Below, one piece after another: positions 8,003 through 54,737 of a DNA stretch of 64,000 bases. The notes beneath the pieces are model-generated. The model did no database searches. It was not told the DNA's origin and saw nothing but the letters and a program-made list of their open reading frames with translations. This DNA comes from Dysgonamonadaceae bacterium (lineage in GTDB: Bacteria; Bacteroidota; Bacteroidia; Bacteroidales; Azobacteroidaceae), in contig JAISUK010000044.1 of NCBI GenBank assembly GCA_031272075.1, positions 62,001 to 126,000 of the forward strand. The letters are read 5' to 3'. The number at the start of each line of letters is the position of its first letter. Position 1 is the first letter of the stretch. A program made the translations under genes and the position numbers.

Positions 8003-10153
<2,151 letters not shown>

Positions 10154-10161
10154 AGATAAAA

Positions 10162-12891: not shown

Positions 12892-12922
12892 AGATACTGA
12901 TTAATTCTTGATTAAAGTCTTA

Positions 12923-13378
12923 TTAATTCGTAATTAACAGCCTTTTAACAACTTCGGAGATGGCTTTTCCTTCGGCGCGACCTGCCAAACGTCTTGATGC
13001 TAAGCCCATTACCTGTCCCATGGCTTTGATGTCGGTTGCTCCGGTTTCCGCGATGATTGCCTTGATTTGCGATTCCAGTTCTTCCGGACTCAGCTGTTGC
13101 GGGAGGTATGCTTCCAGCACGCTGACTTCAGCGAGTTCTTTTTCCGCCAGGTCGGGACGGAGTTGTTCGGTATAGATGGCGGCGCTTTCTTTCCGTTGCT
13201 TCACCATCTTCTGGAGAATCTTGACGGCGGCTTCGTCGCTCAGATCCCCATCGGATCCTTTGGCTGTTTTTGCTTCCAGAAATTCTTTTTTTGCGCCCCG
13301 AAGCGCTTCCAGCCTGATTTTATCTTTTGCCAGCATCGCTTTTTTGATGTCTTCACTGACGGTCTCAAATAAATTCAT
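12923..13378 (-). CDS. yqeY: GatB/YqeY domain protein
   Basis: A 151-residue YqeY-type protein related to the C-terminal tRNA-binding domain of GatB. Typical features are the N-terminal IKKAMLAKDKIRLEALR and the C-terminal GQVMGLASRRLAGRAEGKAISEVVK. Function is not well defined; a role linked to tRNA-dependent amidation has been proposed for the family. The frame is open to 13477, but the ATG at 13378 fits the family length and follows a promoter-like element. Confidence 0.9.
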   Translation of the reverse strand: MNLFETVSEDIKKAMLAKDKIRLEALRGAKKEFLEAKTAKGSDGDLSDEAAVKILQKMVKQRKESAAIYTEQLRPDLAEKELAEVSVLEAYLPQQLSPEELESQIKAIIAETGATDIKAMGQVMGLASRRLAGRAEGKAISEVVKRLLITN

Positions 13379-13412
13379 TGTCGTAGTTGTTATTAATTCA
13401 TGAATGATCCTG

Positions 13413-13420
13413 CAAAGTTC
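13413..13420 (-). promoter_or_regulatory. Likely -7 element upstream of yqeY
   Basis: Minus-strand GAACTTTG differs from TAnnTTTG by its first base. A TTG lies 19 bases upstream as a -33 element. It probably drives yqeY and perhaps the M6 gene 31 bases beyond it. Confidence 0.45.
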
Positions 13421-13464
13421 CGCTTTTCTTTCAAAAAAACAAAAAAACAGCAAAGAAATCCGTT

Positions 13465-13878
13465 TCAGAAATCGCAAAAGATGAAGTCCAGGTTCTGTTT
13501 TACATAATGCTCAAATTTACTGTCGGAACTGATTAATGTTATCTTCTCGGAGATTGCCTGGGAGATGATTAGGTGATCGTTCGGATCATTGTGTCCGGGT
13601 GGACAAATAAGTCTCGAATACGTCAGGAGATGTGCTGTTTTGACCGAGAGAATTTCAAATTTTGAGATTAAATCCGGAATGATGTCTTCCGCATTCTTCC
13701 ATATTGTCCGAATTTTATTTCGCTTGTACAAATGAATGATTTCCATGATAGAGACGGTGCTGATATAATGACGACCATAATAAAAATAATCAATTATATC
13801 TTGAATTTCCTTATTCATTCTCTCTGGTTTGTCGTATAAAGACAACATGGCATTGGTATCTAATAAATAACGAATCAT
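13465..13878 (-). CDS. PIN-domain ribonuclease toxin candidate (copy 1)
   Basis: A 137-residue PIN-domain protein. Acidic active-site candidates are Asp7 (LLDTNAML), Glu46 (STVSIMEIIHL), Asp98/Asp101 (GHNDPNDHLI) and Asp119 (LISSDSKFEHY), the usual spacing for VapC-like RNases. It lies 28 bases downstream of a small basic protein gene, in the usual antitoxin-toxin order. A close paralogue with the same partner is at 37302-37709; long blocks such as YISTVSIMEIIHL and LISSDSKFEHYV are identical or nearly so. The partner does not look like a known VapB, so the pair may be a distinct toxin-antitoxin type. RNA targets unknown. Confidence 0.85.
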   Translation of the reverse strand: MIRYLLDTNAMLSLYDKPERMNKEIQDIIDYFYYGRHYISTVSIMEIIHLYKRNKIRTIWKNAEDIIPDLISKFEILSVKTAHLLTYSRLICPPGHNDPNDHLIISQAISEKITLISSDSKFEHYVKQNLDFIFCDF

Positions 13879-13906
13879 AGTTAAAGCAGGATATGAAGTG
13901 TATGAA

Positions 13907-14116
13907 TCAATACATTTTTGCGTATTCGTCCCGTATCTTTTTATAGGCAGGATAATTTTCCCTTAACCACATACCCAATGGAGAGATTGGGCCTGTCCTA
14001 TCTCCATTGAATTTGAACTCCGTCTTGATACCATCAGGATAGTAATAGACTTTTCCGGTTTTTTCCCGTTTCTTTTTTTTGGGGGGTTCGTTCCCGTTTT
14101 TAATTTCATTTTCCAT
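13907..14116 (-). CDS. Small basic protein paired with the PIN gene (candidate antitoxin, copy 1)
   Basis: A 69-residue protein with a lysine-rich start (PPKKKKREKTGKV), then the conserved core GKVYYYPDGIKTEFKFNGD and an aromatic C-terminal helix (LGMWLRENYPAYKKI). The frame extends upstream to 14374, but that part reads through intergenic heptamer repeats, so the ATG at 14116 (or 14125) is chosen. A minus-strand TACCTTTA, a variant of the usual -7 element, lies about 35 bases upstream. The same core occurs in the copy at 37740. I do not recognise the family; position and co-duplication suggest an antitoxin or other cognate regulator. Confidence 0.7.
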   Translation of the reverse strand: MENEIKNGNEPPKKKKREKTGKVYYYPDGIKTEFKFNGDRTGPISPLGMWLRENYPAYKKIRDEYAKMY

Positions 14117-14170
14117 AATAATCATGTCATTTACCAGGGTTAAATTTCGATGTAAAGGTAAACAAAATAG

Positions 14171-14198
14171 TTGAAAGTTGAAAGATGAAAGTTGAAAA
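14171..14198 (+). repeat. Heptamer repeat TTGAAAG, four units
   Basis: Tandem units TTGAAAG, TTGAAAG, ATGAAAG, TTGAAAA upstream of the PIN module. The same heptamer on either strand recurs at 16932-16945, 22035-22063, 24329-24349, 34236-34249 and 38146-38159, always between genes or at a gene end. Confidence 0.8.
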
Positions 14199-14289
14199 TT
14201 ATTATGAGACTTGACGGATTGCAGGTTTGCTGTATTGAGTATTATATACGGGATTTTCGTAAAAATTCGCATGAAACAAAAATATTCCC

Positions 14290-14297
14290 TAACTTTG
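14290..14297 (+). promoter_or_regulatory. -7 element upstream of the MATE operon
   Basis: TAACTTTG matches TAnnTTTG and precedes the DUF2442-like fragment and the MATE gene by 58 and 138 bases. Confidence 0.55.
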
Positions 14298-14354
14298 CCG
14301 ATGAAAAAGAAGTGATCATAGCAGCATGGAACAATTATTTTAATCCGGAGCGAA

Positions 14355-14438
14355 ATGGGAACAAAAATAAACAATGTATGGATTGACGATACGGAAGTCT
14401 ATATAGAAACTGATGACGGAAAAATTTGTTGCGAATGA
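14355..14438 (+). pseudogene. Truncated DUF2442-like ORF coupled to the MATE gene
   Basis: A 27-residue frame, MGTKINNVWIDDTEVYIETD then DGKICCE, matches the first strand-turn-strand of DUF2442 proteins and then stops, whereas DUF2442 proteins normally run to 70-90 residues. It is probably a gene remnant. Its TGA overlaps the ATG of the MATE gene (ATGA), so it could now act as a translated leader. The upstream frame ending ADEKEVIIAAWNNYFNPE might be the tail of the DUF4160 partner that often precedes DUF2442, but this is very uncertain. Confidence 0.45.
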
Positions 14439-15790
14439 AGACAGGTGATGCACCGCTGGCATTAGGCACTGAAGATACAGGAAAATTGCTGATGCAATAT
14501 GCGATCCCGGCGATTATTGCAATGACGGCCTCGTCGCTCTACAATATCACCGACAGCATATTCATCGGTCATGGCGTCGGTGCGATGGCGCTTTCGGGGT
14601 TGGCCATCACTTTTCCGCTGATGAACCTGTCGGCGGCATTCGGTTCGCTGGTAGGGATGGGGTCGTCCACGCTGTTGTCCGTCAGGCTGGGGCAGCGCGA
14701 CTACGAAACCGCCAACAACATCCTCGGCAATGTGTTTGCACTCAACATCATCATCGGATTTGCCTATATGGTTGTGGTATTGATGTTCCTCGATCCGATC
14801 CTCTATTTCTTCGGGGCGAGCGCCGACACCCTGCCCTACGCGCACGACTTCATGAAGATCCTGCTTTTCGGCAATATCGTGACCCATCTCTATTTTGGCC
14901 TGAACGCGCTGTTGCGTTCTGCAGGGAAGCCGCAGAAATCCATGTACGCCACCATTTTCACCATCCTGCTGAACATGGTGCTCAATCCGCTGTTTATCTT
15001 CGGATTCGGCTGGGGCATCAAGGGCAGCGCCTGGGCGACGGTGATCTCGCAGGTGGCGGTATTGTTGTGGCAGATTCACCTCTTCAGCGACAAGTCGCAG
15101 TTCATCCACCTGAAGAAAGGCATCTACCGGCTCAAGCAGTCGATCGTTAAAGACACTTTCGCCATCGGCATGTCGCCTTTCCTGATGAATGTGGCGGCGT
15201 GCGTGATTGTTGTACTGATCAACCAGGGGCTGATCAAGACCGGCGGCGACCTGGCGGTAGGCGCGTACGGAATAGTGAATCGCGTCGCGTTCTTGCTGGT
15301 GATGCTCGTCATGGGCTTGAACCAGGGGATGCAGCCCATCGCAGGGTACAATTTCGGCGCGAAGCTGTATACCCGCGTGCAGGCAGTATTGAAGAAATCC
15401 GTGTTCATCGCCACGTTCGTGATGACTTTCGGGGCGCTGGCAGTAGAATTGTTCCCGCACGCCGTCGCTTCCATCTTTACCACGGACCAACAATTGACCG
15501 ACTTGGCGGCTACCGGATTGCGTTACATCTTCATGTCGTATCCGCTGGTGGGATTCCAGATGGTGGTATCGGTGTTTTTCCAGAGCATCGGCATGGCGAA
15601 AAAAGCCATCTTCCTCTCCCTCACGCGCCAGGTGTTTTTCCTGATCCCCTGTCTGCTGACGCTTCCGGGACTGATGGGGATCACCGGTGTATGGCTCAGC
15701 ATGCCCGTCTCCGACTTCATCGCCTTCTTCGTCACCGCGGCGCTGCTGTGGCGACAGATCCGACAATTCAACAGACTTGACACCAAATAA
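14435..15790 (+). CDS. MATE family multidrug/metabolite efflux transporter
   Basis: A 451-residue, 12-helix MATE protein of the DinF/NorM type (YNITDSIFIGHGVGAMALSGL near residue 35 and the symmetric half beginning at about 235). Such transporters export cationic drugs or metabolites using Na+ or H+ gradients. An in-frame TTG exists at 14426, but the ATG at 14435 overlaps the TGA of the small upstream frame and is the better start. It leads a plus-strand run of genes to queF. Confidence 0.92.
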   Translation: MKTGDAPLALGTEDTGKLLMQYAIPAIIAMTASSLYNITDSIFIGHGVGAMALSGLAITFPLMNLSAAFGSLVGMGSSTLLSVRLGQRDYETANNILGNVFALNIIIGFAYMVVVLMFLDPILYFFGASADTLPYAHDFMKILLFGNIVTHLYFGLNALLRSAGKPQKSMYATIFTILLNMVLNPLFIFGFGWGIKGSAWATVISQVAVLLWQIHLFSDKSQFIHLKKGIYRLKQSIVKDTFAIGMSPFLMNVAACVIVVLINQGLIKTGGDLAVGAYGIVNRVAFLLVMLVMGLNQGMQPIAGYNFGAKLYTRVQAVLKKSVFIATFVMTFGALAVELFPHAVASIFTTDQQLTDLAATGLRYIFMSYPLVGFQMVVSVFFQSIGMAKKAIFLSLTRQVFFLIPCLLTLPGLMGITGVWLSMPVSDFIAFFVTAALLWRQIRQFNRLDTK

Positions 15791-40416: not shown

Positions 40417-41433
40417 TCAATCTGCCTCGTCCGTCGTAGCGTTTTTTGTTTTCTTCAGCCATCGCATGATGATTTTTGCACCCAGAGCGCCGACAAGGCG
40501 GCTTTCGAGCAGCGGGAAGAATTTCGGATAGGGTTTGAGCGTCGGCGTCAGTGCATCGTAGAGGGCGAACGCCTTGTCTTTGTCGTGCTCGAAGACAGCG
40601 ACGCGATATAGCTCGGCAGCAGACAGCAAAATTTCTGTCATTTCGGGCGTGAGGTCGAGACGGGCGATACTGTCGACCGCCACCTCCAAATCGGCCGCTT
40701 TTTTTGCGGTGAGCACATTGCGTAGTTGTCTGTAGGCAATCACCAGGTCGACGGCGGCTTTCCCTTTTGCCTCGTTGAAGAAAGCGCGATGCTCAATCAG
40801 CGACGGGAGTGCGGCCTGGTTGATCGATTCGTCGGAGTAGATGTACCACAGGGCTGTATCCTGTTTTTCAATCCGTAGGGAATCGAAAAGAATATGCACG
40901 AGGCGGCGCGCCTGTCCGGCATCATGTTGCGCGAGGCATTGTTGCAGGAAAGCGGCAAGGAATGCCTGGTCGCGTCGTCCGGAAGCAAACTCGTTATACA
41001 TCGTTCCGTTGGCGGCGTCGTCGTCTAAGCCTTGTTGCGTCCGTTTCAGGAACGAGGCTGCCAAATCGTCAGCGCCGGTGAACTTATGTTGCAGCGTTCC
41101 GTCGGGGCGCACGATGAGGAATGTCGGGAAGGCAGTTACCGCGAAGCGCTTCGACAGCGCAGGGCCTTCGCCCTTTTCCATATCTATCTGGATATTGATG
41201 AAGCGTGCGTTGAAAAAAGCGCCCACCTCTTCCAGCGGAAAAATATTCTTGGCAATCTGCTTGCAGGGGCCGCACCACGAGGTATAGCAATCCACAAACA
41301 AATATTTATTTTCCGTCTTTGCTTTGGCCAATGCCTCATCGAAGCCGACCGACTCAAAGGCGATGCCCTGCGCAAAGGCGGGCATCATGCCGATGAGTGT
41401 TGTGAACAGAAAGCATAATGGTCGTTTCATCAA
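40417..41433 (-). CDS. Exported thioredoxin-fold protein of uptake locus 1
   Basis: A 338-residue protein with signal peptide (RPLCFLFTTLIGMMPAFAQ), a thioredoxin domain with SWCGPCK (Cys54, Cys57) and cis-Pro in VTAFPTFLIV, and a helical C-terminal half of about 190 residues without known domain. It is homologous along its whole length to the last gene of locus 2 (53682-54737). The start overlaps the stop of the metallohydrolase-family lipoprotein by 4 bases, so it belongs to the SusCD operon. It probably acts as a periplasmic thiol reductase; its role in uptake is unknown. Confidence 0.88.
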   Translation of the reverse strand: MMKRPLCFLFTTLIGMMPAFAQGIAFESVGFDEALAKAKTENKYLFVDCYTSWCGPCKQIAKNIFPLEEVGAFFNARFINIQIDMEKGEGPALSKRFAVTAFPTFLIVRPDGTLQHKFTGADDLAASFLKRTQQGLDDDAANGTMYNEFASGRRDQAFLAAFLQQCLAQHDAGQARRLVHILFDSLRIEKQDTALWYIYSDESINQAALPSLIEHRAFFNEAKGKAAVDLVIAYRQLRNVLTAKKAADLEVAVDSIARLDLTPEMTEILLSAAELYRVAVFEHDKDKAFALYDALTPTLKPYPKFFPLLESRLVGALGAKIIMRWLKKTKNATTDEAD

Positions 41434-42575
41434 TGCGGTTCTTGAAGCGTTACGTCGAAATTCTGCCGGAAATAGTCCTGCACGAGTTGAATCTTTTGCT
41501 TGAAGAAGCCGATGGTCTTGTCGATGGTGATATCTTTCGGCAGGTAGGAAGCGGAGGCCTTGCTGATGAAGAACGCTTCGGGTTTGCTGCGCAGATAGGT
41601 GTAATACGCTTCCTTCTCGGCGGCGGTTCGGTTCAGGATGAAGGCGACGTAATCGGCGAAATCCTGCTCGACGCGCGGGCAGCCCATATAGCCGAAGTAG
41701 GTGCCGGTAGGCGAGAGATAGCGATAATAATATTCGAAGCGGCTCGGACGGAAGATGCCGATCTGTATCCAGGGGCAGCGTTCCTGCGTGATTGATCCCT
41801 CAATATCATCCACAAATCCTTCGGGCGTATTTGTCGTGGCGGCCGACAAGGTGCCGTTCGCCCAATAAGCGAGTATGGCCGGTGGAGTCGTTGGCGGGAG
41901 GTCGGTATATACGCCGTAAGTGGTGCTGATGATGGATTTTTTGTGATACGCATACGAAACTGCTTTGAAGTCGTCCGGAGCAGGCCAGCCGGTGGTGTTC
42001 ATCATCATGCGTTCCACGAGGACGGACGTCAGTTTTTCTTTCAATTGTTGGCGCGACATCCGATCCATTTCCGGCCCTACGTCGGTCAGCACGACGAGCG
42101 TGTTGGTAATCAACGCATCGAAGGGCGTTTCCTGTTTTACCGCAGGAATGCCGTTGATGTTATCCACTACATACCGCCAATTGTGCCGCAAATTACTGCA
42201 CAGCAAGATCTGCGTTTGCATGTACTTCTTGATGAATCCTTCGGGGAAGAGTTCAAACACTTCTTCGAGCACATCGAGGAAGGGCAGCACGTAGTCCATA
42301 TCGGCGGCATCGTAAGGGAAAGCGGTGAGATAGACGGTGCTTGTCCAGTTGTAGCCGATTTCGTCGGACGAGAAGCGCGGGCGGATCAGTATGTCGTATT
42401 TCGTGGCCAATTCTTCGATGCGCGCATTGATGGCGGCGTTGTCGCTGTCGTTATTGCTGCCGTCGGAATCGGAAGTAGGCAAGTAGCCGATCTCGTCGCT
42501 GGGATCGCTGCGGTCGCAGGCAAGGAATCCGATGACGACCAGCAGGCTTAACAGGATATATTTGATCTGTTTCAT
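41430..42575 (-). CDS. Substrate import-associated metallohydrolase-family lipoprotein with altered active site
   Basis: A 381-residue lipoprotein (lipobox VIGFLACDRS) whose body matches the zinc metallohydrolase lipoproteins linked to SusCD pairs (TIGR04549-type): RPRFSSDEIGYNWTSTVYLT, WRYVVDNINGIP and the C-terminal region with EQDFADYVAFIL. In typical members a HHEFAH-like zinc motif precedes a Tyr-Pro-x-x-Phe segment; here that place reads VLVERMMMNTTGWPAPDDF, so both His are absent. It is probably not a zinc peptidase and may bind substrate only. It follows SusD by 40 bases. Confidence 0.75.
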   Translation of the reverse strand: MKQIKYILLSLLVVIGFLACDRSDPSDEIGYLPTSDSDGSNNDSDNAAINARIEELATKYDILIRPRFSSDEIGYNWTSTVYLTAFPYDAADMDYVLPFLDVLEEVFELFPEGFIKKYMQTQILLCSNLRHNWRYVVDNINGIPAVKQETPFDALITNTLVVLTDVGPEMDRMSRQQLKEKLTSVLVERMMMNTTGWPAPDDFKAVSYAYHKKSIISTTYGVYTDLPPTTPPAILAYWANGTLSAATTNTPEGFVDDIEGSITQERCPWIQIGIFRPSRFEYYYRYLSPTGTYFGYMGCPRVEQDFADYVAFILNRTAAEKEAYYTYLRSKPEAFFISKASASYLPKDITIDKTIGFFKQKIQLVQDYFRQNFDVTLQEPH

Positions 42576-42615: not shown

Positions 42616-44292
42616 TTAATCGGGAGTTTTGGCGTAGCGTACGTTGGGCACGAGCTTCGCTCCGTTGTATTCGCGCTCGGCGATGGGGAAGTCGAGCACG
42701 TAGTTGGGGTCGTGATCTTGCAGCGTGTAGGTCTGTTCGTACCACTTGTGCACAATCTTCGGTTGTCCGGTGCGCCGCAAGTCCCACCAGCGGTGAAACT
42801 CCTCGAAGCACAATTCGCGTCGGCGTTCGTTCCATACAAACTGTACCAATTCGCTATTCGAAGCAAAGGTGGTGGAAGCGAGTTCTTCCGAGGTGCCGGC
42901 GTAAGGTGCGATGCGCTTCTCGCGCAAGTCGTTCAGGTATTGAATGGCTTTGGCGGCATCGCCTCCGGAGTTGCGCCGCGCGTAGGCTTCCGCCAGATTG
43001 AGATACACTTCGCCGGTACGGATCACGTTGGGGAAGTTGTAGCAGACGCTGAAGTCATACGAACGGTCGCTTTTCATTACGTAGTAGTTGTAGCGTGAAC
43101 GCACGGAGGTGACGCCGGTATAAGGGCGCGGTGCGATGAACCAATAAACGGGTCGCCGGTCGCCGGTAACCGATGCAATGATGCCGTTGGCGCCGCGCGT
43201 GATGCTGAAGTTGTACTGTCCGATCAGCGTCTTGGCTTCATATTCCGCCGAGTTTGTCAGGTTCGGCGCGACGAGATAGCTGCCGAGCGCATTCTCATCA
43301 ATTGGCGCTGAAGTACGCCAGCCGATGGCGGTATTGTAGTCAATGGCTTGTACGGGATACGTGAAGTTTCCCCAACTGAGTACTATTTCGGTGTTGCTGC
43401 GCGTAAAGAAATTGACCACGGCCGCGTCGGAATTATTGGTGGTGGTGTTTGATGCCGGATTGTTCGCTCTGTCCTGCATCGAGATATCGTACAGTCCATT
43501 GGTAGCGCCATATTTCGTCAGGAATTCTTCGCCGTAGAGAATCGCCTGGCTGTAGTCTTCCTGAAAGAGGGCGATGCGCGAGGCGACGATCAGTGCGGCT
43601 TTGTGGTTGACTTCGTAGGCCGAAGCGATGTCCTTGCCGTCGAGGTTGTCCAAAGCCGTCCGGATGTCGTTGTTGATCAGCGTCCAGACTTCGCCGACGG
43701 TGTTGCGGGCAAAGGTAGCGGTCGTCGTGGTGGTCTCGTTCTTGATGGGGACGCAGAGGTCGCTCGATTGCGCTTCGTTGAACGGCTTCGCATACGTGTT
43801 GGCCAGATAGAAATAGGCCAATGCACGGTGGAAGGCGGCCTGTCCGCGCAGGATTTCTTTTTCGTCGTCGGTGCCGTCGGTGTCGTCCACCGCATCGAGG
43901 CAGAGGTTAGCGATCAGAATCTGGTGGTAGAGCTGTTTGAAAAACTCGTCGGTAAACTCGGTTTCGATCTCCTGATCCCAGAAATAGCAACGGTCGTAGG
44001 TAGCGAAATAGCTGCTGGTAAGGTAGGAGGCTTGCTCCGACCAGTCTTTTCGGTTGGCGTCTTCCGCGAGATTGACGGCTGAGAAAAATTCCACGTCGTC
44101 GGTCATATAGTTGATGAAGTTGCCCGTATTGGAGACATCTTTGAAGTAGGCTTCCCCTTGCAGGATTTCTTTATAGTCGCGCGTGGTGACGGGAATCTTC
44201 AAGTCTTGCGCCGAACGTTCGAGGAAGTCGCCGCAGGATGTTCCCGCGAAGCACAGCATGCTGAGGATTAAAAATGGATTTGTCAGTTTCAT
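42616..44292 (-). CDS. SusD/RagB family nutrient-binding lipoprotein (locus 1)
   Basis: A 558-residue SusD-like protein with lipobox CFAGTSCGDF. SusD features: YHQILIANLCLDAV and YLANTYAKPFNEA in the TPR-like N-terminal part and the C-terminal LNLAEAYARRNSGGDAAKAI, then LCFEEFHRWWDLRRTG. It sits on the cell surface as the lid of the SusC pore. It starts 12 bases after the SusC stop. Ligand unknown; no glycoside hydrolases are nearby, and peptides are a reasonable guess. Confidence 0.94.
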   Translation of the reverse strand: MKLTNPFLILSMLCFAGTSCGDFLERSAQDLKIPVTTRDYKEILQGEAYFKDVSNTGNFINYMTDDVEFFSAVNLAEDANRKDWSEQASYLTSSYFATYDRCYFWDQEIETEFTDEFFKQLYHQILIANLCLDAVDDTDGTDDEKEILRGQAAFHRALAYFYLANTYAKPFNEAQSSDLCVPIKNETTTTTATFARNTVGEVWTLINNDIRTALDNLDGKDIASAYEVNHKAALIVASRIALFQEDYSQAILYGEEFLTKYGATNGLYDISMQDRANNPASNTTTNNSDAAVVNFFTRSNTEIVLSWGNFTYPVQAIDYNTAIGWRTSAPIDENALGSYLVAPNLTNSAEYEAKTLIGQYNFSITRGANGIIASVTGDRRPVYWFIAPRPYTGVTSVRSRYNYYVMKSDRSYDFSVCYNFPNVIRTGEVYLNLAEAYARRNSGGDAAKAIQYLNDLREKRIAPYAGTSEELASTTFASNSELVQFVWNERRRELCFEEFHRWWDLRRTGQPKIVHKWYEQTYTLQDHDPNYVLDFPIAEREYNGAKLVPNVRYAKTPD

Positions 44293-44304: not shown

Positions 44305-47300
44305 TTAGAATGTGATATTTATATTAAAGGTATAAGCGCTCGGCAACGTGGAGTTGGCTGATGAAGCTTGTTCGGGGTCGCGCCCGTGCCAGCGTTTGTC
44401 GGCTATCAGGAACAGGTTTGTCGCTTGAGCCGACAGTTCCATCGAGGCGATGTGGAACATCCTCGACCACTGACGCGGCATTAAATAACTCAGGTAGAGT
44501 CGATTCAAGCGGATGTTGTCGGTCGAAGCGACCCGTATGTCGGAACGGTCGTAGATCGATGTGCCGGAGATTACCGAGTAGGTAAGGAAGGACGATCCGT
44601 CGTAGTAACTGACGGTGGGACGTCGTCCGTCGCCATTCGCCAGCGTGTTGTATTGCTGGTAGTTGAACAGCGCGGGGATGTTGGTAAATTCCTCGTCGCC
44701 CGGTTGTTTCCAACGATTAATCAGTTCTTTGGGGACATTAAACATCGGGTCGAACACACGCGCTGACGATGTATTCGAATAGTTATAGAGGTTCGGTAAG
44801 CGTTTCACGCCGCCCAACTGATAGGCGAAGTCGGCATTCAAACGAAAATTCTTCCAGCGGGCATGCAATTTCAGGCCGCCGGTATGTGGCGCATAGAGGA
44901 GGCCGGATTTCACCAAGCCCGCCCGTTCCGAATAGAGCGTGTAGTTGGGATGTTCCTGGTCGTCGATGCCGATGTAAGTATGCTTGCCTTCGTCGTCGTA
45001 GAAGATGGGGAGGCCGGTGTCGTGATCCAGTCCGTAGAATTGGTAGGAATAGAGCGTGCCGAGCGGTTCGCCGACGATCAACGCATTGCCGTTGAGCTTA
45101 TCGCTGGTGGTGACTTCTTTGCCGTCGTTGGCTTTGGTCAGCGTATTTTTGTTGTAGCCGTAGATTACGCCGAGTCCGAGTTCCCAATCCTTCGATTTGA
45201 TGGGGTAGGCCATCAGGTCGATTTCGTACCCGACATTCTCAATGTCGCCGCCATTGATCTTGTAGCTGCTCAGCCCGTTTATCGCCGAGATCTGCTTGTA
45301 CATGATGGCGTCGGTGGTTTTTTTGTGATAAGCGTCAAACGAACCGGAGATGTGGCCGTTGAACAGCGAGAAGTCTAGCCCGGCATTGTAGGTCACAACT
45401 TTCTCCCAACGCAGGTCGGGATTGGGATAATAAGAAACGTACGATTCCCAAAGGCCGACCTCGGAATAAGGGATGGTGCGTATGGTTGATACCAGATCGG
45501 GCGATGTGTTTGTGTCCACCGATCCCAATGCGCCGTAGGAAGCGCGTAGAGCCAGGTAGTTCAATAACGGATTGTCTTTCAGGAACGCTTCGTTTGTCAG
45601 CGTATATTTCGCGCCGAGCGACCAATTGGGCAAAAAGCGGTATTTGGGATTCACGCCGAACTGATTGGAGCCGTCGGCGCGAATGGAGAACGAGCCGGTG
45701 AGCTTGTCTTTATAGGAATACGATCCCGAACCGATCCATGACAGGTAGTTCTGTTCGCTGTCGGTGATTGAGGGCGAGAGACTCGAACGGAAATAGGCGT
45801 AGTTGCTGGACGTTACGGTCGGGCTGAGGATCTGTCCTTCGGGAAACCAGCCGCGAATCGTTACGCCGAAGCCGTCGGACTTGACGGTGCGGATTTCGGA
45901 AATGGCTTCCGCACTGAAGGTATGCACGTCGTTGAACGTATTGTTGTAAGCGACGGCATTGCGTATCGTATAGGCTGTCTGTTTGGATTCACGATTGTTG
46001 TAGATGCCGCCGTAGGGGAGGGAGCTTGAGTTTGCCTTGTCCGATCCCGGCAGTTCGGCGCCGACCGCATAACCGCGGATAGCAGTCACGATATAAGAAT
46101 CTTCCGTTGCCGTAGAGACGCGGGTGGTGTTGGATTTGGAGATCGAGCCCGACAGTTTATAACGGAATCCTTTGTAGAAATTCCATTGCAGGTCGAGTTT
46201 GGTATTCAGTTGATCGACATCGGCGGTTTGTCCCGTCTGGCTGATTTCGTAGAGGTAGTTGCGAACCATCGCCGACTGATCGTCGTTGTAGGTCGAACTT
46301 GTTGTCTGCACCGGGTGGAAGAAATAGCTGCCGTCGTCGTTGTAGGCGGGGATGGTGCGCGCCGTATTGTACGCCCATGAATCGGGATTGACACCTGTAT
46401 AGAAACCGTGATTGCGCTGTGATGATGAGGATATCTGGAAATTGACGTACAGCTTCTTCGACAGCCACGATGTGAGTTTCAGCAATCCGTTGTAGCGGGT
46501 GCTTTCGCTGCCGATGGCTGTGCCCGGCGAATTGTTGTATCCGAGCGAGGCGTAGTAGGTGGCAGTTTCGGTGCCTCCGTTGATGCTCAGCGTGTGATTG
46601 GTGGTGACGGCATCGCGAAAGAGGAGGTCGTACCAGTCGGTATTGCGGTCGGACATCTGCTGCACGGCCGAAGTGAACTGATCGTAGGTCAATGCCTTAT
46701 TCAGATAGTCCAAATAGAGCGCTTCGTAGCCCACCACATTCGGCACGCGGGGATAGAGCAGGCTGGCGGCGATGATTTCCTGCGACAGCGTGATGCGTTC
46801 GCCGGCGTTCATCATGCCGAGATTGCTGTAGTTGACTCGCTCATTGATGGAGAAGTTGCCGTTGTATGTCGCCTGCGGCTTGCTGGCCTTGCCTTTTTTT
46901 GTGGAGACAACGATAACGCCATTGCCGGCGCGGACACCATAGAGTGCGGCGGCTGCGGCGTCTTTCAAGACATTGATCGATTCGATGTCTTGCGGATTGA
47001 TGCCCGCGATGGCGTTGCCGATCAGGTAGGCCGCATCGTCACCGTTGAGGTCGCTGTAGCTTACGCTCACCGGATCGTCGAGGATGATGCCGTCGAGCAC
47101 CCACAGCGGCGCTTTGTTGCCGAGGATGGAGGCGTTGCCGCGAATACGGATTTTGGGCGTGGCGCTCGGTTCGCCGCTACCAAGGGAGACCGACATGCCG
47201 GCCACTTGTCCGGCGAGCATCTGCGCTACCGACATCCGTGAGTCAGACATGATGTCGGTCGCCTCAATGCGCTTGGCGGCGCCGGTCAATTCATGCTTTG

Positions 47301-47952
47301 AGATTTCTCCATAACCGGTGACGATCACTTCGTCGAGTGCGAGCGGGTCTTCTTCGAGCCGCACCACCCAGTTTTGCTTGGGAATCGCGCTGACCGGGCA
47401 TGTTACCGATCGGTAACATATAAGTGAGAAGGTGATCACCTGGCTTTCATCGACTGTCAGCGAGAAGGCGCCATCGGGGTCGGTCAATGTGCCTGTGGGT
47501 GTTCCTTTCACATACACCAGCACGCTGGCAAGGGGCTCGCCCGACTTGTCGATCACTTTTCCGGAGACCGATGTCATTTGCGGGTTTTGTGGCGTGTCGC
47601 TTGCCGGAGTCCGCTGATTTGGTGTTTGCTTCTGCTTTTCTTTCAGCGTGATGTGGATAAACTGTCGGTCGATGGTATAGTCCAGCGGTTTATCGCCGAT
47701 CAGTTGTTTCAGCGCTTGTTCAATGTTGTCAGCTTCCACCTTACCCGACACGGTATAGTGGCTTATCTGATCATAGACAAACAAAATTTTGTAGTCCGTC
47801 AACTTCTCCAAGCGCTTAAACGCTTGTGAGAGCTGTTCATTCTTTAACTCAAGGCTAATCATTTTCTGCGTATCGGTATTTTGTACCGATGATTTCGCCA
47901 TCGCGATTTGCATCAACAACAGAGATAAAGATACAATGAATATTCTCTTCAT
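44305..47952 (-). CDS. SusC/RagA TonB-dependent outer-membrane transporter (locus 1)
   Basis: A 1,215-residue transporter with signal peptide, an N-terminal STN domain (about 30-110) that signals to FecR, a carboxypeptidase-regulatory-like beta domain (about 128-215), the TonB-box region LALDEVIVTGYGEISK, a plug domain with DAAAAALYGVRAGNGVIVVS and a large barrel ending in NSTLPSAYTFNINITF. The STN domain shows that it is a transducer, consistent with the FecR and ECF sigma genes upstream. It takes up the substrate bound by the partner SusD. Confidence 0.95.
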   Translation of the reverse strand: MKRIFIVSLSLLLMQIAMAKSSVQNTDTQKMISLELKNEQLSQAFKRLEKLTDYKILFVYDQISHYTVSGKVEADNIEQALKQLIGDKPLDYTIDRQFIHITLKEKQKQTPNQRTPASDTPQNPQMTSVSGKVIDKSGEPLASVLVYVKGTPTGTLTDPDGAFSLTVDESQVITFSLICYRSVTCPVSAIPKQNWVVRLEEDPLALDEVIVTGYGEISKHELTGAAKRIEATDIMSDSRMSVAQMLAGQVAGMSVSLGSGEPSATPKIRIRGNASILGNKAPLWVLDGIILDDPVSVSYSDLNGDDAAYLIGNAIAGINPQDIESINVLKDAAAAALYGVRAGNGVIVVSTKKGKASKPQATYNGNFSINERVNYSNLGMMNAGERITLSQEIIAASLLYPRVPNVVGYEALYLDYLNKALTYDQFTSAVQQMSDRNTDWYDLLFRDAVTTNHTLSINGGTETATYYASLGYNNSPGTAIGSESTRYNGLLKLTSWLSKKLYVNFQISSSSQRNHGFYTGVNPDSWAYNTARTIPAYNDDGSYFFHPVQTTSSTYNDDQSAMVRNYLYEISQTGQTADVDQLNTKLDLQWNFYKGFRYKLSGSISKSNTTRVSTATEDSYIVTAIRGYAVGAELPGSDKANSSSLPYGGIYNNRESKQTAYTIRNAVAYNNTFNDVHTFSAEAISEIRTVKSDGFGVTIRGWFPEGQILSPTVTSSNYAYFRSSLSPSITDSEQNYLSWIGSGSYSYKDKLTGSFSIRADGSNQFGVNPKYRFLPNWSLGAKYTLTNEAFLKDNPLLNYLALRASYGALGSVDTNTSPDLVSTIRTIPYSEVGLWESYVSYYPNPDLRWEKVVTYNAGLDFSLFNGHISGSFDAYHKKTTDAIMYKQISAINGLSSYKINGGDIENVGYEIDLMAYPIKSKDWELGLGVIYGYNKNTLTKANDGKEVTTSDKLNGNALIVGEPLGTLYSYQFYGLDHDTGLPIFYDDEGKHTYIGIDDQEHPNYTLYSERAGLVKSGLLYAPHTGGLKLHARWKNFRLNADFAYQLGGVKRLPNLYNYSNTSSARVFDPMFNVPKELINRWKQPGDEEFTNIPALFNYQQYNTLANGDGRRPTVSYYDGSSFLTYSVISGTSIYDRSDIRVASTDNIRLNRLYLSYLMPRQWSRMFHIASMELSAQATNLFLIADKRWHGRDPEQASSANSTLPSAYTFNINITF

Positions 47953-48095: not shown

Positions 48096-49247
48096 TTAGT
48101 CGATATATACTGTGTCGCCTACCGAACGGACGTTGATGATTTTCATGCGATTGAGCAGGATGAGCGCCTGCTCGAGCGTGTCGTGACGGTCGCAGAAGTA
48201 GCGCATGCTGTATTTCATTACATTTGAGTTATTGAAAATGACATTGATATTATACCACCTTCCCAGGCTCTGCATGATGTCGATGAGCGGGACGTCGTCG
48301 AAGTAGAAATAGCCTTGTTTCCAATAGATATATGCGTCCACATCGACCGATTTGACGAGGAACGAGCCTTCGGCTTGCCATTGGGCGTCTTGTCCGGGGA
48401 TCAGCGTCGTGAACACCTCTTTTCTGTGCGGGTCGCCCACTTCGATGCTACCGTTGATCAGCGTCACGTGCGAATCGTGTGCGGCATAATTGCGCACATT
48501 GAGTTCCGTTCCCAGAACACGCACCTGCATCTGCTCCGTCTGAATGACAAACGGGTGAGCGGAATCTTTTGCCACTTGGAAATACGCTTCTCCCTGCAAA
48601 GCGACGCTGCGCACTGCCCCGTCGAACCGTGAGGGGTATTCGAGACGGCTTTCCGCATTCATCCACACGGTGGTGCCATCCGACAGCACGACTTTGAAAT
48701 CTTGTCCGCGAGGCGTGGTCAAGGTGTGCATTTCCACCTTTTGCGGCGCGGTATAGGTCAACGACAGCGTGTCGCGACGGTCGAGCAAGGTGCCGAACGA
48801 TGCCAACGCATCGTCTTTGGTGTCGTGTGCCAACACGAGGGCTTCGCCGGTTGTGGTTTGTAGAACGACTTGCTGCACGGCATCTATCGCTTGGAAAGCC
48901 ACCACTTCTTCGTTGCGGCGCAGGTTGCCTGCCCACCACAGGTAGCCCAAGAAGAGCAATGCGGCGGCAGCAACGCCGGATATCGATATCCAGAGCGTAC
49001 GACGCACGGACTTTTTCTGCGTCCGGTGTTGGAAGCGATTCCATTCGTCGTTCACATTTGTCGGCAGTGGATCGTATCTCAGCAAAAGCGCGCTCCTGCT
49101 GTTCACGAAGTCCTTATACGCGCGCATGGCTTCGTCGTCCTGCAAGAGGCGATCTTTCTCCTCGTCGGTCAATGCCCGTCCCCGCTCAGTCAGTTCGATG
49201 ATCTCTTCCAGCGGATCTTTTTCCAATTTGTTATTATCTTTTGTCAT
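48096..49247 (-). CDS. FecR-family anti-sigma factor (locus 1)
   Basis: A 383-residue inner-membrane regulator: cytoplasmic N-terminal part, a membrane segment near residues 85-105 (LWISISGVAAAALLFLGYLW), the periplasmic FecR domain (TTPRGQDFKVVLSDGTTVWM, LQGEAYFQVAKD) and a C-terminal DUF4974 domain (YIYWKQGYFYFDDVPLIDIM). It holds the ECF sigma inactive until the STN domain of SusC reports substrate. It starts 53 bases after the sigma gene and lies 143 bases upstream of SusC. Confidence 0.93.
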   Translation of the reverse strand: MTKDNNKLEKDPLEEIIELTERGRALTDEEKDRLLQDDEAMRAYKDFVNSRSALLLRYDPLPTNVNDEWNRFQHRTQKKSVRRTLWISISGVAAAALLFLGYLWWAGNLRRNEEVVAFQAIDAVQQVVLQTTTGEALVLAHDTKDDALASFGTLLDRRDTLSLTYTAPQKVEMHTLTTPRGQDFKVVLSDGTTVWMNAESRLEYPSRFDGAVRSVALQGEAYFQVAKDSAHPFVIQTEQMQVRVLGTELNVRNYAAHDSHVTLINGSIEVGDPHRKEVFTTLIPGQDAQWQAEGSFLVKSVDVDAYIYWKQGYFYFDDVPLIDIMQSLGRWYNINVIFNNSNVMKYSMRYFCDRHDTLEQALILLNRMKIINVRSVGDTVYID

Positions 49248-50036: not shown

Positions 50037-50048
50037 ATAAATGTGTGT

Positions 50049-50063
50049 CCGGAGCAAATCCGG
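50049..50063 (+). promoter_or_regulatory. Short hairpin in the putA leader
   Basis: CCGGA, loop GCAAA, TCCGG, followed after a gap by a T-rich stretch. It lies between the small leader ORF and putA. A role in attenuation is possible but the stem is short. Confidence 0.3.
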
Positions 50064-50119
50064 CGTTTTCCGTTGAAATTTTATTTTTTTACTTACACAT
50101 TTATTTATTATTTATCATT

Positions 50120-53100
50120 ATGAACAATCTTCAACCTACACTTACCGAAGTACAGGAGTGGGCGCTCAAACTGTACAATACCTGTGAACAAACGATTACC
50201 GAATCGGAGCGCAAAGAACAACACAAGTACGCCGTCATGGTGCAACGACCGCAGGACAAGAAATTCCTGGTCAAGATGCTCGACGAATCGTCGCAGATAC
50301 GCGATCACCGGAAGCTGGCCAAACGCATCAAATGGATGCTTGACTGCTATGGGGTGCCGAAATTCCTCAACAAACGCGATGCTTTCCTGTTTAAGATGTA
50401 TCAGGTGGTCGGCCACTATTTTGACTTTATCGCCATCCCCATCATCAAGAAACGGTTGCGGATGGATACTTCGAAGATCATCATCGACGAGGCGCGTCCC
50501 CGCATGACGCGGCACTTGGCGCGTCGCTACAAGGAACGGATCGGACAGAATGTCAACCTATTGGGCGAAGTTGTGCTGGGAAACGAAGAAGCCGATCATC
50601 GCTACCATCACTACCTGGAAGCGCTGGAATCGCCCGACATCAATTATATCTCCGTAAAAATATCGGGAATTTATGCCCAGACGCATGCTTTGAATTACGA
50701 GGAAAGTTTCCCGGAGCTCGTGGCGCGTATGTCTGCGCTCTACCAGAAAGCCATCGACTTTCCCTATACCGACGAAGACGGTGTGACGCGCGCCAAATTC
50801 ATCAATCTGGATATGGAAGAATACAAAGATTCGCATTTCACCCTGCGCCTGTTTAAAGAAGTGCTCTCGTTGCCGCAATTCAAGCATTATTCTGCGGGCA
50901 TTGTGGTGCAGTCCTACCTGCCGGACGCTTACGATTTCCAGACGGAACTGCTGGCGTTTGCCAAAGCGCGGGCGGCTGCAGGCGGGGCGCCGCTGAAGAT
51001 GCGACTGGTGAAAGGTTGCAACCTGGAGATGGAGACAGTGGTGTCGTCGCTGCGTGGCTGGCCGAATCCCATCCGTCCGTCGAAAACAGAAGTCGACGCC
51101 AACTACCTGCACCTGCTGGAACGGGGATTGTTGCCCGAAAATGCACAAGTGCTGCATCTGGGTGTCGCCTCCCACAATTTTTTTACCATTGCATACGCCT
51201 ACCTGCTGGCGAAACAGTATGGCACAACCCAATACATGACTTTCGAGATGCTGGAAGGCATGGCTAATCATCTGTGGCGGGCGCAGTCGTTGCTCGGCAA
51301 CCGTGTGATCCTGTATACGCCGGTGGTGAAAAACGAACATTTTCTGAATGCCGTCTCCTACCTGGTGCGCCGCATGGATGAAAATACGGCGCCGGACAAC
51401 TTCCTGACACATTCGTTCAACCTGCGACCGGATACGGAAGAATGGCATTTTCTGTCGAAGCAGTTTGAAGATGCTTATGCGATGCGCGACCATTTGTCGC
51501 ACAGCTCGCCGCGGACACAAGACCGCCTGAAGCCCTACGTCGATGTTGCGCCTTCGGATGTGATGAAGAATGAGCCGGATACCGATTTCGACCTCGCGCA
51601 AAATCAGGAATGGGTGAGAAAAATCATTGCGGAATGGAAAAAACCTGCTTCCGCACAACCGCAGATCATCCCATTGCAGATTGGTGCGGAAACGGTGGTC
51701 TGCGAAAAACGTTTCCGCTATTTCGACCGCTGTCAGGATGAGGAAGTTTGCCTCTACGAGATGTCGCAGGCAAACAATGAACAGATCAAAAAAATCATCT
51801 CCATTGCAGAAACCGATCCGGCAGCATGGCGGACAACCACACTTGAACAAAGGCACCGCATCATGTATGCTGCGGCCAACAACCTGGCGGCGATGCGTGG
51901 CGATCTGATCGGCTGCATGTGCGCCGTCACCGGCAAGACCATCACCGAAGGCGACGTGGAAGTGTCGGAAGGGGTCGATTATGCCCGTTTCTATACGACT
52001 GCCATGAAGCAATTCGCTGCCTTGGATACTGTCGAGATGAAGCCCAAAGGCACCGTCCTGGTGATTTCTCCCTGGAATTTCCCCTGCGCCATCCCGATTG
52101 GCGGGATTGTGGCGGGGCTGGCAGGCGGGAATACGGTCATCCTGAAGCCCGCGACCGTTGCGGCTCCGGTGGCATGGTTGTTTGCCGAAGCCTTCTGGCG
52201 GGCAGGCGTGCCGAAAGAAGCGCTGCAAGTCGTCATCACCGACCGCGAAGCCTTGCAGACATTGACTGCGGCGCCAGCCATCAAACATATCATCCTCACC
52301 GGCGGAACCGATACAGCGCAGGCCATCGCCAAATCCAATCCGACAACGCCCTTATCGGCCGAAACGGGCGGCAAGAATGCCATCATCCTGACGGCGTCGG
52401 GCGACCGCGACCATGCCATCTTGAATATCGTCACTTCGGCTTTCGGCAATGCCGGACAGAAATGTTCGTCGTGTTCGCTGTTGCTGGTAGAACGGTCGGT
52501 GTACGAAGACAAGCAATTCCAGGCAAAACTGAAAGATGCGGCCACAAGCCTGAAAGTCGGCAGTGTGTGGAATCCGGGCAATATCGTCGGCCCGATGATC
52601 ACCAACCACAACGACAAACTGTTGCAGGCGTTGACACTCGAAGAAGGAGAATCGTGGCTGGTGGCGCCCCGTTTTATCGATGCGCAGCGCTACATCCTGG
52701 CGCCGACCATCAAATGGGGAGTCAAGCCGGGGAATTTTTCGTTCCGCACCGAACTGTTCGCCCCGTTGTTGAGCGTGGCGTGCATCGACAACCTGAAAGA
52801 AGGCATTGCCCTGGTCAACGGACTGGACTACGGCCTGACATCCGGTCTGCAAAGCCTGGATGAAAACGAACAGCGCTTATGGAAAAATGACATTATGGCA
52901 GGAAATCTCTATATCAACCGCGGCATCACGGGCGCCATCGTCAACCGTCAACCTTTCGGCGGCATGAAACTTTCTGCTTTCGGCGGCGGCATCAAGGCAG
53001 GAGGGCCGAACTACTGCACCTGCTTTGTCGAGATTGCCGACAAGCAAGGCGCTACTGCGGATTACGAAACGAGTTACAAGCGGGCATACGAGCAGGAATT

Positions 53101-53557
53101 TTCCATTGCACGCGATATCAACAATCTGTATGGCGAACAAAACCTGTTCCGCTACCTGCCGTTGCGCAGTATGGCGCTGCGCTTGTTTCCCGGCGACAGC
53201 CACGAACAGGCGGTAATGATCGCGCTGGCAGCGAAAATTTGTCGCACACCACTCACCGTCAGTGTCGACCCTGCCGATGACCGTCCGGCACTGTCTGCCG
53301 ACTTGGACTGTGAGATCCGCCAGGAGTCGCTGAATGAGTTCCTGGAACGGTTGCCGCAGTACGAACGCATCCGCACCTGTTCGCCCCAGATTCCCCTGGC
53401 GATGTACGAACGGGCGGCTGCGACGGACAAATACATCGCTACGGCGCCTCCGGTAAGGGAAGGTCGCCTGGAACTGATCCATTACATCAAGGAGCAGAGC
53501 ATCGCTTTCGAGTACCACCGTTACGGGAGCATTTCGGACATTCCGATTTGTGAGTAG
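50120..53557 (+). CDS. putA: Bifunctional proline dehydrogenase / L-glutamate gamma-semialdehyde dehydrogenase
   Basis: A 1,145-residue PutA-like enzyme. The N-terminal half holds the FAD-dependent proline dehydrogenase barrel (VKISGIYAQTHALNYEE, MRLVKGCNLEMETV, LGVASHNFFTIAYAYLL). The C-terminal half is an aldehyde dehydrogenase with ISPWNFPCAIPIGG, ETGGKNAIIL and the catalytic Cys in GNAGQKCSSCS. Together they oxidise proline to glutamate with channelling of the intermediate. No DNA-binding RHH domain is visible at the N-terminus, so it is not a self-regulating PutA. The frame is open to 50045, but the ATG at 50120 is chosen. It lies between the two uptake loci. Confidence 0.94.
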   Translation: MNNLQPTLTEVQEWALKLYNTCEQTITESERKEQHKYAVMVQRPQDKKFLVKMLDESSQIRDHRKLAKRIKWMLDCYGVPKFLNKRDAFLFKMYQVVGHYFDFIAIPIIKKRLRMDTSKIIIDEARPRMTRHLARRYKERIGQNVNLLGEVVLGNEEADHRYHHYLEALESPDINYISVKISGIYAQTHALNYEESFPELVARMSALYQKAIDFPYTDEDGVTRAKFINLDMEEYKDSHFTLRLFKEVLSLPQFKHYSAGIVVQSYLPDAYDFQTELLAFAKARAAAGGAPLKMRLVKGCNLEMETVVSSLRGWPNPIRPSKTEVDANYLHLLERGLLPENAQVLHLGVASHNFFTIAYAYLLAKQYGTTQYMTFEMLEGMANHLWRAQSLLGNRVILYTPVVKNEHFLNAVSYLVRRMDENTAPDNFLTHSFNLRPDTEEWHFLSKQFEDAYAMRDHLSHSSPRTQDRLKPYVDVAPSDVMKNEPDTDFDLAQNQEWVRKIIAEWKKPASAQPQIIPLQIGAETVVCEKRFRYFDRCQDEEVCLYEMSQANNEQIKKIISIAETDPAAWRTTTLEQRHRIMYAAANNLAAMRGDLIGCMCAVTGKTITEGDVEVSEGVDYARFYTTAMKQFAALDTVEMKPKGTVLVISPWNFPCAIPIGGIVAGLAGGNTVILKPATVAAPVAWLFAEAFWRAGVPKEALQVVITDREALQTLTAAPAIKHIILTGGTDTAQAIAKSNPTTPLSAETGGKNAIILTASGDRDHAILNIVTSAFGNAGQKCSSCSLLLVERSVYEDKQFQAKLKDAATSLKVGSVWNPGNIVGPMITNHNDKLLQALTLEEGESWLVAPRFIDAQRYILAPTIKWGVKPGNFSFRTELFAPLLSVACIDNLKEGIALVNGLDYGLTSGLQSLDENEQRLWKNDIMAGNLYINRGITGAIVNRQPFGGMKLSAFGGGIKAGGPNYCTCFVEIADKQGATADYETSYKRAYEQEFSIARDINNLYGEQNLFRYLPLRSMALRLFPGDSHEQAVMIALAAKICRTPLTVSVDPADDRPALSADLDCEIRQESLNEFLERLPQYERIRTCSPQIPLAMYERAAATDKYIATAPPVREGRLELIHYIKEQSIAFEYHRYGSISDIPICE

Positions 53558-53670: not shown

Positions 53671-53692
53671 CCCCCAGACTGTTATCTGGGGG
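53671..53692 (-). terminator. Hairpin spanning the stop codon of the locus 2 thioredoxin gene
   Basis: CCCCCAGA and TCTGGGGG form an 8-bp, GC-rich stem with a 6-base loop. The minus-strand TAA stop lies in the loop. It could end the long locus 2 operon and also block read-through from putA. The T run is weak. Confidence 0.55.
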
Positions 53693-54737
53693 TGATAGAC
53701 CGTTGGATGTAGCCTTTGGTCGATTCGTCGGTGACCAATTGCAGCAATTCCGCTGTTTGAGTTTCGTTCCAGGTTTTTTTGAAAGCCGGTATCACGAAAT
53801 AAAGAAACAAGTTTTTATCCAAATCCACCAACTTCGGCGCTGTGGTATTGATCAGTTCGAAGAGTGCTTCCTGGCCGGATTCCGTCATTTTGGCCACCGA
53901 AGCAGCCTGGTATACCGGCAGAATATCGGCGTTTAACAAGTGGAGGGAAGCGGCTTTATTTCCAGCCTCTTCAATCTTTTCCTTGGTTGCCTGGCGGTCG
54001 TATCCCTGGAGTATTTTGGAAAAATATATCACATATTTCATTTTCAATACCGAATCAACCTTCTGTCGGCCAATCTCTTCCCGAAATGTTTCCAGATTTT
54101 CGGTCAGAAACGCTTCCTTTTCGGAACCAAGTGGGGCGTAGCTGTCGAAGATAAAGAAACCTTCTTTGAAAATTTTGTCTTCGTCTTTGAGCGTTTCGTA
54201 AAATTCTTCGACCAGCTTGGTGACATCGGTGGTATGTGTGTTTTGCAGCGCCTCTAAATAGCAGGCAACCAGTTTTTTATCCCGATCTCCGGCATCGTAG
54301 CGTTTTTTCAGCGCTCCAAAAGCTTGGGCAGGGTCGAAAGAAGCATCCACCTTGTCGATAAACCGGAGATCGAGGACACCTCCGGCAAAAAGATGGATCA
54401 ACTCGCCTTCTCCGTCCAGGATGACGAAGGTGGGATAGGCTTTAATGCCGAATTTCTTGGCAAAAACCGGTCCTGAATCCCCTTTCTCTGCGTTCACTTT
54501 GACGCTGACAAAGCGTGGGTTGAAATAGTCTCCGATTGCTTTCAACGGAAATATCTGTGCATCCATCAAACGGCAAGGGCCGCACCAGTCGGTGTAAACG
54601 TCCACAAACACAAATTTGTTCTCGGCTTTGGCTTTTGCCACGGCCTCATCGGGGGTGATTTCCTCGAAATTGATTCCCTGTCCCCAGAGGGTTGACGACA
54701 GGATGATTGATGACAGGAAAAGCATTATTTTTTGCAT
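53682..54737 (-). CDS. Exported thioredoxin-fold protein of uptake locus 2
   Basis: A 351-residue paralogue of the protein at 40417-41433: signal peptide (LFLSSIILSSTLWGQ), thioredoxin domain with DWCGPCR (Cys52, Cys55), cis-Pro in IKAYPTFVIL, and the same kind of helical C-terminal half. It is the last gene of the second uptake operon, 25 bases after the PKD-like lipoprotein gene. Its position mirrors locus 1, so the thiol protein seems to be a regular part of these systems. Confidence 0.88.
   Translation of the reverse strand: MQKIMLFLSSIILSSTLWGQGINFEEITPDEAVAKAKAENKFVFVDVYTDWCGPCRLMDAQIFPLKAIGDYFNPRFVSVKVNAEKGDSGPVFAKKFGIKAYPTFVILDGEGELIHLFAGGVLDLRFIDKVDASFDPAQAFGALKKRYDAGDRDKKLVACYLEALQNTHTTDVTKLVEEFYETLKDEDKIFKEGFFIFDSYAPLGSEKEAFLTENLETFREEIGRQKVDSVLKMKYVIYFSKILQGYDRQATKEKIEEAGNKAASLHLLNADILPVYQAASVAKMTESGQEALFELINTTAPKLVDLDKNLFLYFVIPAFKKTWNETQTAELLQLVTDESTKGYIQRSITPR

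Follow-up and report, generated by a model that had tools for sequence, protein, structure and literature searches.

Organisation of the operon

The window analysed here, a stretch of 64,000 nucleotides from the genome of a Dysgonamonadaceae bacterium, carries an operon that reads SusC, SusD, a lipoprotein and a thioredoxin-fold protein (Table 1). SusC and SusD are separated by 12 nt, SusD and the lipoprotein gene by 40 nt, and the stop codon of the lipoprotein gene shares one nucleotide with the ATG of the thioredoxin-fold gene (TGATG). The codon-position composition of the lipoprotein gene is similar to that of its neighbours, and acidic residues directly follow the lipobox cysteine of the encoded protein. 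The window also has a second thioredoxin-fold gene (53685-54737, minus strand; 140.9 bits when compared with that of the operon), with a proline dehydrogenase/aldehyde dehydrogenase gene (50045-53557) located between it and the operon.

Table 1. Features of the operon and of its third gene, with coordinates in the window
Feature	Position	Strand	Basis
FecR-type regulator, upstream of SusC	48096..49247	-	PF04773 and PF16344
SusC/RagA TonB-linked outer membrane protein	44305..47952	-	TIGR04056, 629.8 bits
SusD/RagB lipoprotein	42616..44292	-	PF14322 and PF07980, over cut-off
HExxH-less Mx1-like lipoprotein gene, 381 aa	41430..42575	-	intact ORF; lipobox Cys20; weak PF15890 match; profile homology to TIGR04549/PF15890 enzymes
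Signal peptide and lipobox to Cys20 of the lipoprotein	42516..42575	-	Cys20 aligned in 19/19 rows
Lipoprotein residues 187-203, VERMMMNTTGWPAPDDF, site of the HHEFxH...PxxF motif	41967..42017	-	hhalign, MAFFT
Lipoprotein residues 303-309, EQDFADY, site of the enzymes' E-D-F-x-E motif; first Glu replaced by Gln304	41649..41669	-	joint alignment
Thioredoxin-fold protein with CGPC motif	40417..41430	-	PF00085

Residues at the zinc-motif positions

The preliminary description placed the lipoprotein among the metallohydrolase lipoproteins of TIGR04549 and held that both zinc-binding histidines of the HExxH motif are missing. This family (TIGR04549/PF15890, substrate import-associated zinc metallohydrolase lipoproteins) has 4l7a and 9urd as solved relatives. 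The histidines are indeed absent. No HExxH occurs anywhere in the protein, and the stretch from residue 187 to 203 aligns, by both hhalign and MAFFT, with HHEFTH...PESF of the TIGR04549 protein encoded in the same genome, with VERMMM at the place of HExxH. The placement of residues here is certain only to within about one position; neither alignment shows a His there, and both pair Glu188 with the first His of the motif and are gapped near the second. The absence even exceeds what had been claimed, as the Glu of the second motif is also gone. In the joint alignment HExxH and the Glu in E-D-[FI]-x-[ED] are present in 17 out of 17 enzymes, and we take this Glu to be, probably, the third zinc ligand, by analogy with other zincins.

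None of the 19 rows of the window protein's group encodes HExxH in that alignment. The second-motif column of these rows is occupied by Gln in ten, by Asn in three, and by Gly, Trp, Leu, Arg, Ser and Asp in one each, so that Gln is not universal in the group; Glu is found in none as aligned, and L114 would gain one by a shift of a single residue. The spacer between the two motifs is 100 residues in the window protein, compared to 33-39 in 16 of the 17 enzymes and 60 in the remaining one. A zinc site elsewhere in the protein, which the preliminary description had considered, was not apparent either: except for the lipobox Cys, no alignment column holds His or Cys in at least 8 of the 19 rows.

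Kinship to the enzymes and spread of the HExxH-less group

Direct comparison with the enzymes gives weak matches. BLASTP aligned the TIGR04549 protein of the same genome to the window protein with 24% identity over 142 residues (E 0.012), PF15890 reached 16.4 bits (E 0.0062; cut-off 25.6) over residues 299-377 only, and no NCBIfam model matched at E<=0.01, the 75 bits or more required for TIGR04549 thus not being reached. The gene is located beside SusC and SusD, as the TIGR04549 definition expects of its lipoproteins, and its product shows neither of the zinc features of that definition (HExxH; the Glu of E-D-F-x-E). By the curated cut-offs the window protein is outside TIGR04549. With matches as weak as these, the earlier view of good conservation throughout the remaining protein does not hold, and the family label needed testing with profiles.

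Profile comparison was more informative. Alignments of 7 close relatives (A3) and of 13 relatives (A5), compared with 14 HExxH enzymes (A4) by hhalign, gave probabilities of 98.5 and 99.3 (about 97-99). With the signal peptides removed, profile scores against the enzymes were 83 for the 7 close relatives, 131 for all 19 and 108 for the 12 distant ones, whereas 18 control comparisons (reversed, column-shuffled and unrelated neighbour families, likewise without signal peptides) scored between 11.6 and 24.2, the highest two, 24.2 and 23.6, being against Met-zincins. The profile alignment between group and enzymes is nearly co-linear and extends over most of the mature chain. Judged from these profiles, the homology of the group to the HExxH enzymes is beyond chance, and it is secure at the profile-to-profile level only. 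The proposed family membership thus stands as profile homology to TIGR04549/PF15890, and fails as membership by either curated cut-off. PF15890 gave a weak match in six out of ten relatives scanned, and none of the ten reached a Pfam or NCBIfam cut-off, which leaves the genes of the group unannotated. A sequence search of the PDB with profile A1 returned one chance match, and profile A6 reached the solved relative 9urd at an E-value of 0.11 only.

In a tree built on 257 columns, excluding the motifs and signal peptides, the window protein and 18 relatives, three of them from the same genome, are found on one side of a branch and 17 enzymes together with L062 on the other. The tree has long branches, and the support of this one (94/97, not starred; found in 96% of 200 bootstrap trees) has to be read with the separation being partly by construction, since the rows were found with HExxH-less profiles and most enzymes with PF15890. 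The absence of HExxH is a state of the whole group and not of one deviant member. A sequencing or assembly error as the cause of the missing motif was rejected, as the open reading frame is intact and the state is common to the 18 further tree rows, which come from several genomes. The curated family has mostly kept the motif: PF15890 has matches in 12 out of 149 genomes, and 17 of the 20 distinct ones encode HExxH. The question of whether most members lack HExxH therefore has two answers, no for the curated family and yes for the group of the window protein, where all 19 lack it. Broken motifs over the PF15890 cut-off are found in L062 (1339-2358, plus strand; HHQFAK), L056 (1027-1923, plus strand; HHEFSN) and L057 (1441-2247, minus strand; HHEFSS), the latter two in the order listed. 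L062, counted in neither group, appears from its place among the enzymes in the tree to be a second, separate loss.

Using the window protein as a query, relatives were found in 3 out of 295 genomes of its order, its own included, and a profile free of the signal peptide gave matches in 8 of the 295. The genome of the window encodes four HExxH-less members (on C50, the contig of the window, C53, C60 and at C52:85322) and one enzyme. The signal-peptide-free profile also picked up L119, an HExxH enzyme, and L115 (1432-2409, minus strand; a frame of 326 residues with a lipobox), another HExxH-less relative, which is in neither the tree nor the tallies. Most weak matches from profiles including the signal peptide matched the signal peptide only, as seen by inspection of the proteins from one search and judged by the matched range alone for the other. 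L013 was discarded as a relative, being another protein on inspection, and a scan of viral contigs gave nothing useful. The dN/dS ratios of three close pairs of relatives, the window gene not among them, are fairly high (0.57, 0.50 and 0.35), and two further pairs were saturated. The L007 record (CANQBK010000128.1), titled 'uncultured Clostridia', encodes a SusD and a lipoprotein that closely resemble those of a Bacteroidales MAG, and it is probably a misbinned contig.

Operon partners and proposed role

SusC and SusD are located upstream in all 18 mapped HExxH-less loci, that is the 19 rows of the tree minus L007, a partial contig, and likewise in all 11 mapped loci out of the tree's 17 enzyme rows. 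The downstream genes differ. A thioredoxin-fold protein and/or an HExxH-bearing Met-zincin is encoded within the next four genes in 12 out of 17 HExxH-less loci (L101, which ends at the contig end, was left out) versus none of the 11 enzyme loci (Fisher p = 2.5e-4, relatedness ignored). Eight loci have a thioredoxin-fold gene with a CxxC motif (the window, L098, L102, L103, L008, L120, L124 and L128), and five an intact Met-zincin (PF16313), assigned with Pfam for L097 and L098 and with phmmer for L121, L122 and L125; L098 has both, hence 12 in total. L008, L102 and L103, where the neighbour is of the TlpA type, are near relatives of each other. Among the five loci with neither partner, L129 has a subtilase downstream and L127 nothing recognised. 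In the other three (L099, L123 and L126) the order SusC, SusD and HExxH-less lipoprotein is followed by an ABC ATPase and an ABC-2 type permease with ABC_transp_aux. In 10 of the 11 enzyme loci the next gene encodes a DUF4302 protein (nine by phmmer, using a protein so named by Pfam as a query, and one by Pfam; the next gene of L135 was left out of this test).

L121 offers a further case of an enzyme next to a pseudoenzyme in such an operon: the gene of an intact Met-zincin (10020-12431; HEVGH) is directly followed by that of a relative with SAFAE at the place of HExxH (12447-14753, plus strand).

By alignments and profiles the window protein is a relative of a peptidase family without the metal and catalytic residues, as expected of a pseudopeptidase. 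We consider it probable that it is a non-catalytic accessory lipoprotein that captures or positions proteins or peptides as substrates of SusCD, with co-encoded enzymes doing the chemistry. The lineage would have descended from the SusCD-associated zinc metallohydrolases, and its metal site would then have been lost rather than gained, a single loss in the group's ancestor being the simplest case. The lipoprotein most likely sits on the outer membrane, presumably in complex with its SusCD pair, and its old cleft, presumably metal-free and inactive by now, may capture or orient the substrate for import. The chemistry would be performed in the window operon by the exported thioredoxin-like protein of the next, overlapping gene, and in the relatives by thioredoxin- or TlpA-like proteins and/or the intact Met-zincin protease, once by the subtilase. 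A retained operon place and fold family, catalytic residues gone, and new partners that are catalytic are together expected if a subunit stopped cutting but kept holding; the lack of the zinc site throughout the group likewise suggests that the protein probably helps the importer to hold on to its substrate and does not cut it. The preliminary description had proposed a turn from enzyme to binding protein, and we infer the same, as the best reading of the sequences. The nature of the partners, thioredoxin-fold proteins and proteases, suggests that the substrates are proteins or peptides and may contain disulfides.

It is unlikely, though the most plausible of the alternatives, that the protein is a purely structural subunit of SusCD, a scaffold or lid support that binds no ligand itself and keeps its fold only for contacts with SusC and SusD. 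This is consistent with the strict SusC-SusD gene order despite widely differing sequences, and with how few residues beyond the signal peptide are conserved throughout the group: in a set of 13 sequences M1 and C20 alone are invariant, and P120 and L377 nearly so. It is however less easily reconciled with Glu188, Gln304 and Asp308, which stand at the old motif sites and are invariant among the 7 closest relatives.

Improbable, and somewhat more so, is that the protein is still an enzyme or metal binder, either with other catalytic residues or with its metal site moved elsewhere. All 7 closest relatives keep the same acidic residue in six columns (D92, D171, E188, D308, E320 and E322). The two AlphaFold models of the window protein, made from three-row alignments, are of low confidence (mean pLDDT 40.8 and 42.1), and a Foldseek search with them gave no match at E<=0.001. 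Furthermore, four sequences of one genus (L004, L005/L008, L007 and L020) share a CC...HCC cluster, which may form disulfides or a new metal site. The window protein, L003 and L010, however, lack this cluster, and the group has no shared His or Cys column beyond the lipobox. That there is no kinship to the metallohydrolases at all, the motif alignment being due to chance and the site never having existed in this lineage, would fit the near absence of pairwise and family matches, but is very improbable given profile scores far above all controls, a nearly co-linear alignment, the recurrent weak PF15890 match and the same operon place.

Extending the pseudopeptidase reading to the whole group, we tentatively speculate that it is an undescribed group of pseudo-metallopeptidases that act as a module for substrate capture in SusCD importers whose cargo is proteins or disulfide-bonded peptides. 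After loss of zinc in the enzyme encoded by the third gene, these operons would have recruited Met-zincin, subtilase and thioredoxin partners, to which proteolysis and reduction were passed, so that the operon keeps its chemistry while binding is separated from cutting. If true, the SusCD substrate of these operons can be guessed from the partners (a protein or a peptide, in many cases disulfide-containing), and the enzymes and non-enzymes at the same operon place offer a natural series for testing how a subunit of an importer goes over from cutting to holding. The genome of the window encodes both kinds.

We found no study or description of the HExxH-less group in the open-access papers searched. 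The family itself was found named in one open-access paper, in the form of a gene table: the table, from an iron-limitation study of Riemerella anatipestifer, includes an HExxH-type relative together with the SusC and RagB/SusD genes belonging to it (values 3.06, 3.41 and 3.81; PMC5429918), a hint that some such HExxH enzymes act in iron supply. Like the TIGR04549/PF15890 proteins, the window protein is a lipoprotein encoded by the third gene, after SusC and SusD, and its homology to them covers most of the mature protein; unlike them it has no HExxH, a Gln for the second-motif Glu, a longer motif spacer, scores under both curated cut-offs and a thioredoxin instead of DUF4302 downstream.

SusE and SusF are built from other domains. 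The window protein resembles accessory SusCD lipoproteins, such as surface glycan binding proteins, in being encoded with one SusCD pair and in its presumably non-catalytic role, but differs in its likely derivation from a metallopeptidase-like family. SusCD pairs are described as carrying extra lipoproteins, one pair of B. theta being stably complexed with two of unknown function (PMC7618045). Metallopeptidase pseudoenzymes have, as far as the text available from a review of them goes (PMC11266112), similarly lost the metal site while keeping the resemblance, with a binding or scaffold role inferred. That text contains no SusD, transporter or word beginning with Bacteroid-, and lipoprotein and words in bacteri- in its reference list only; unlike the pseudoenzymes it covers, the window protein is tied to an importer.
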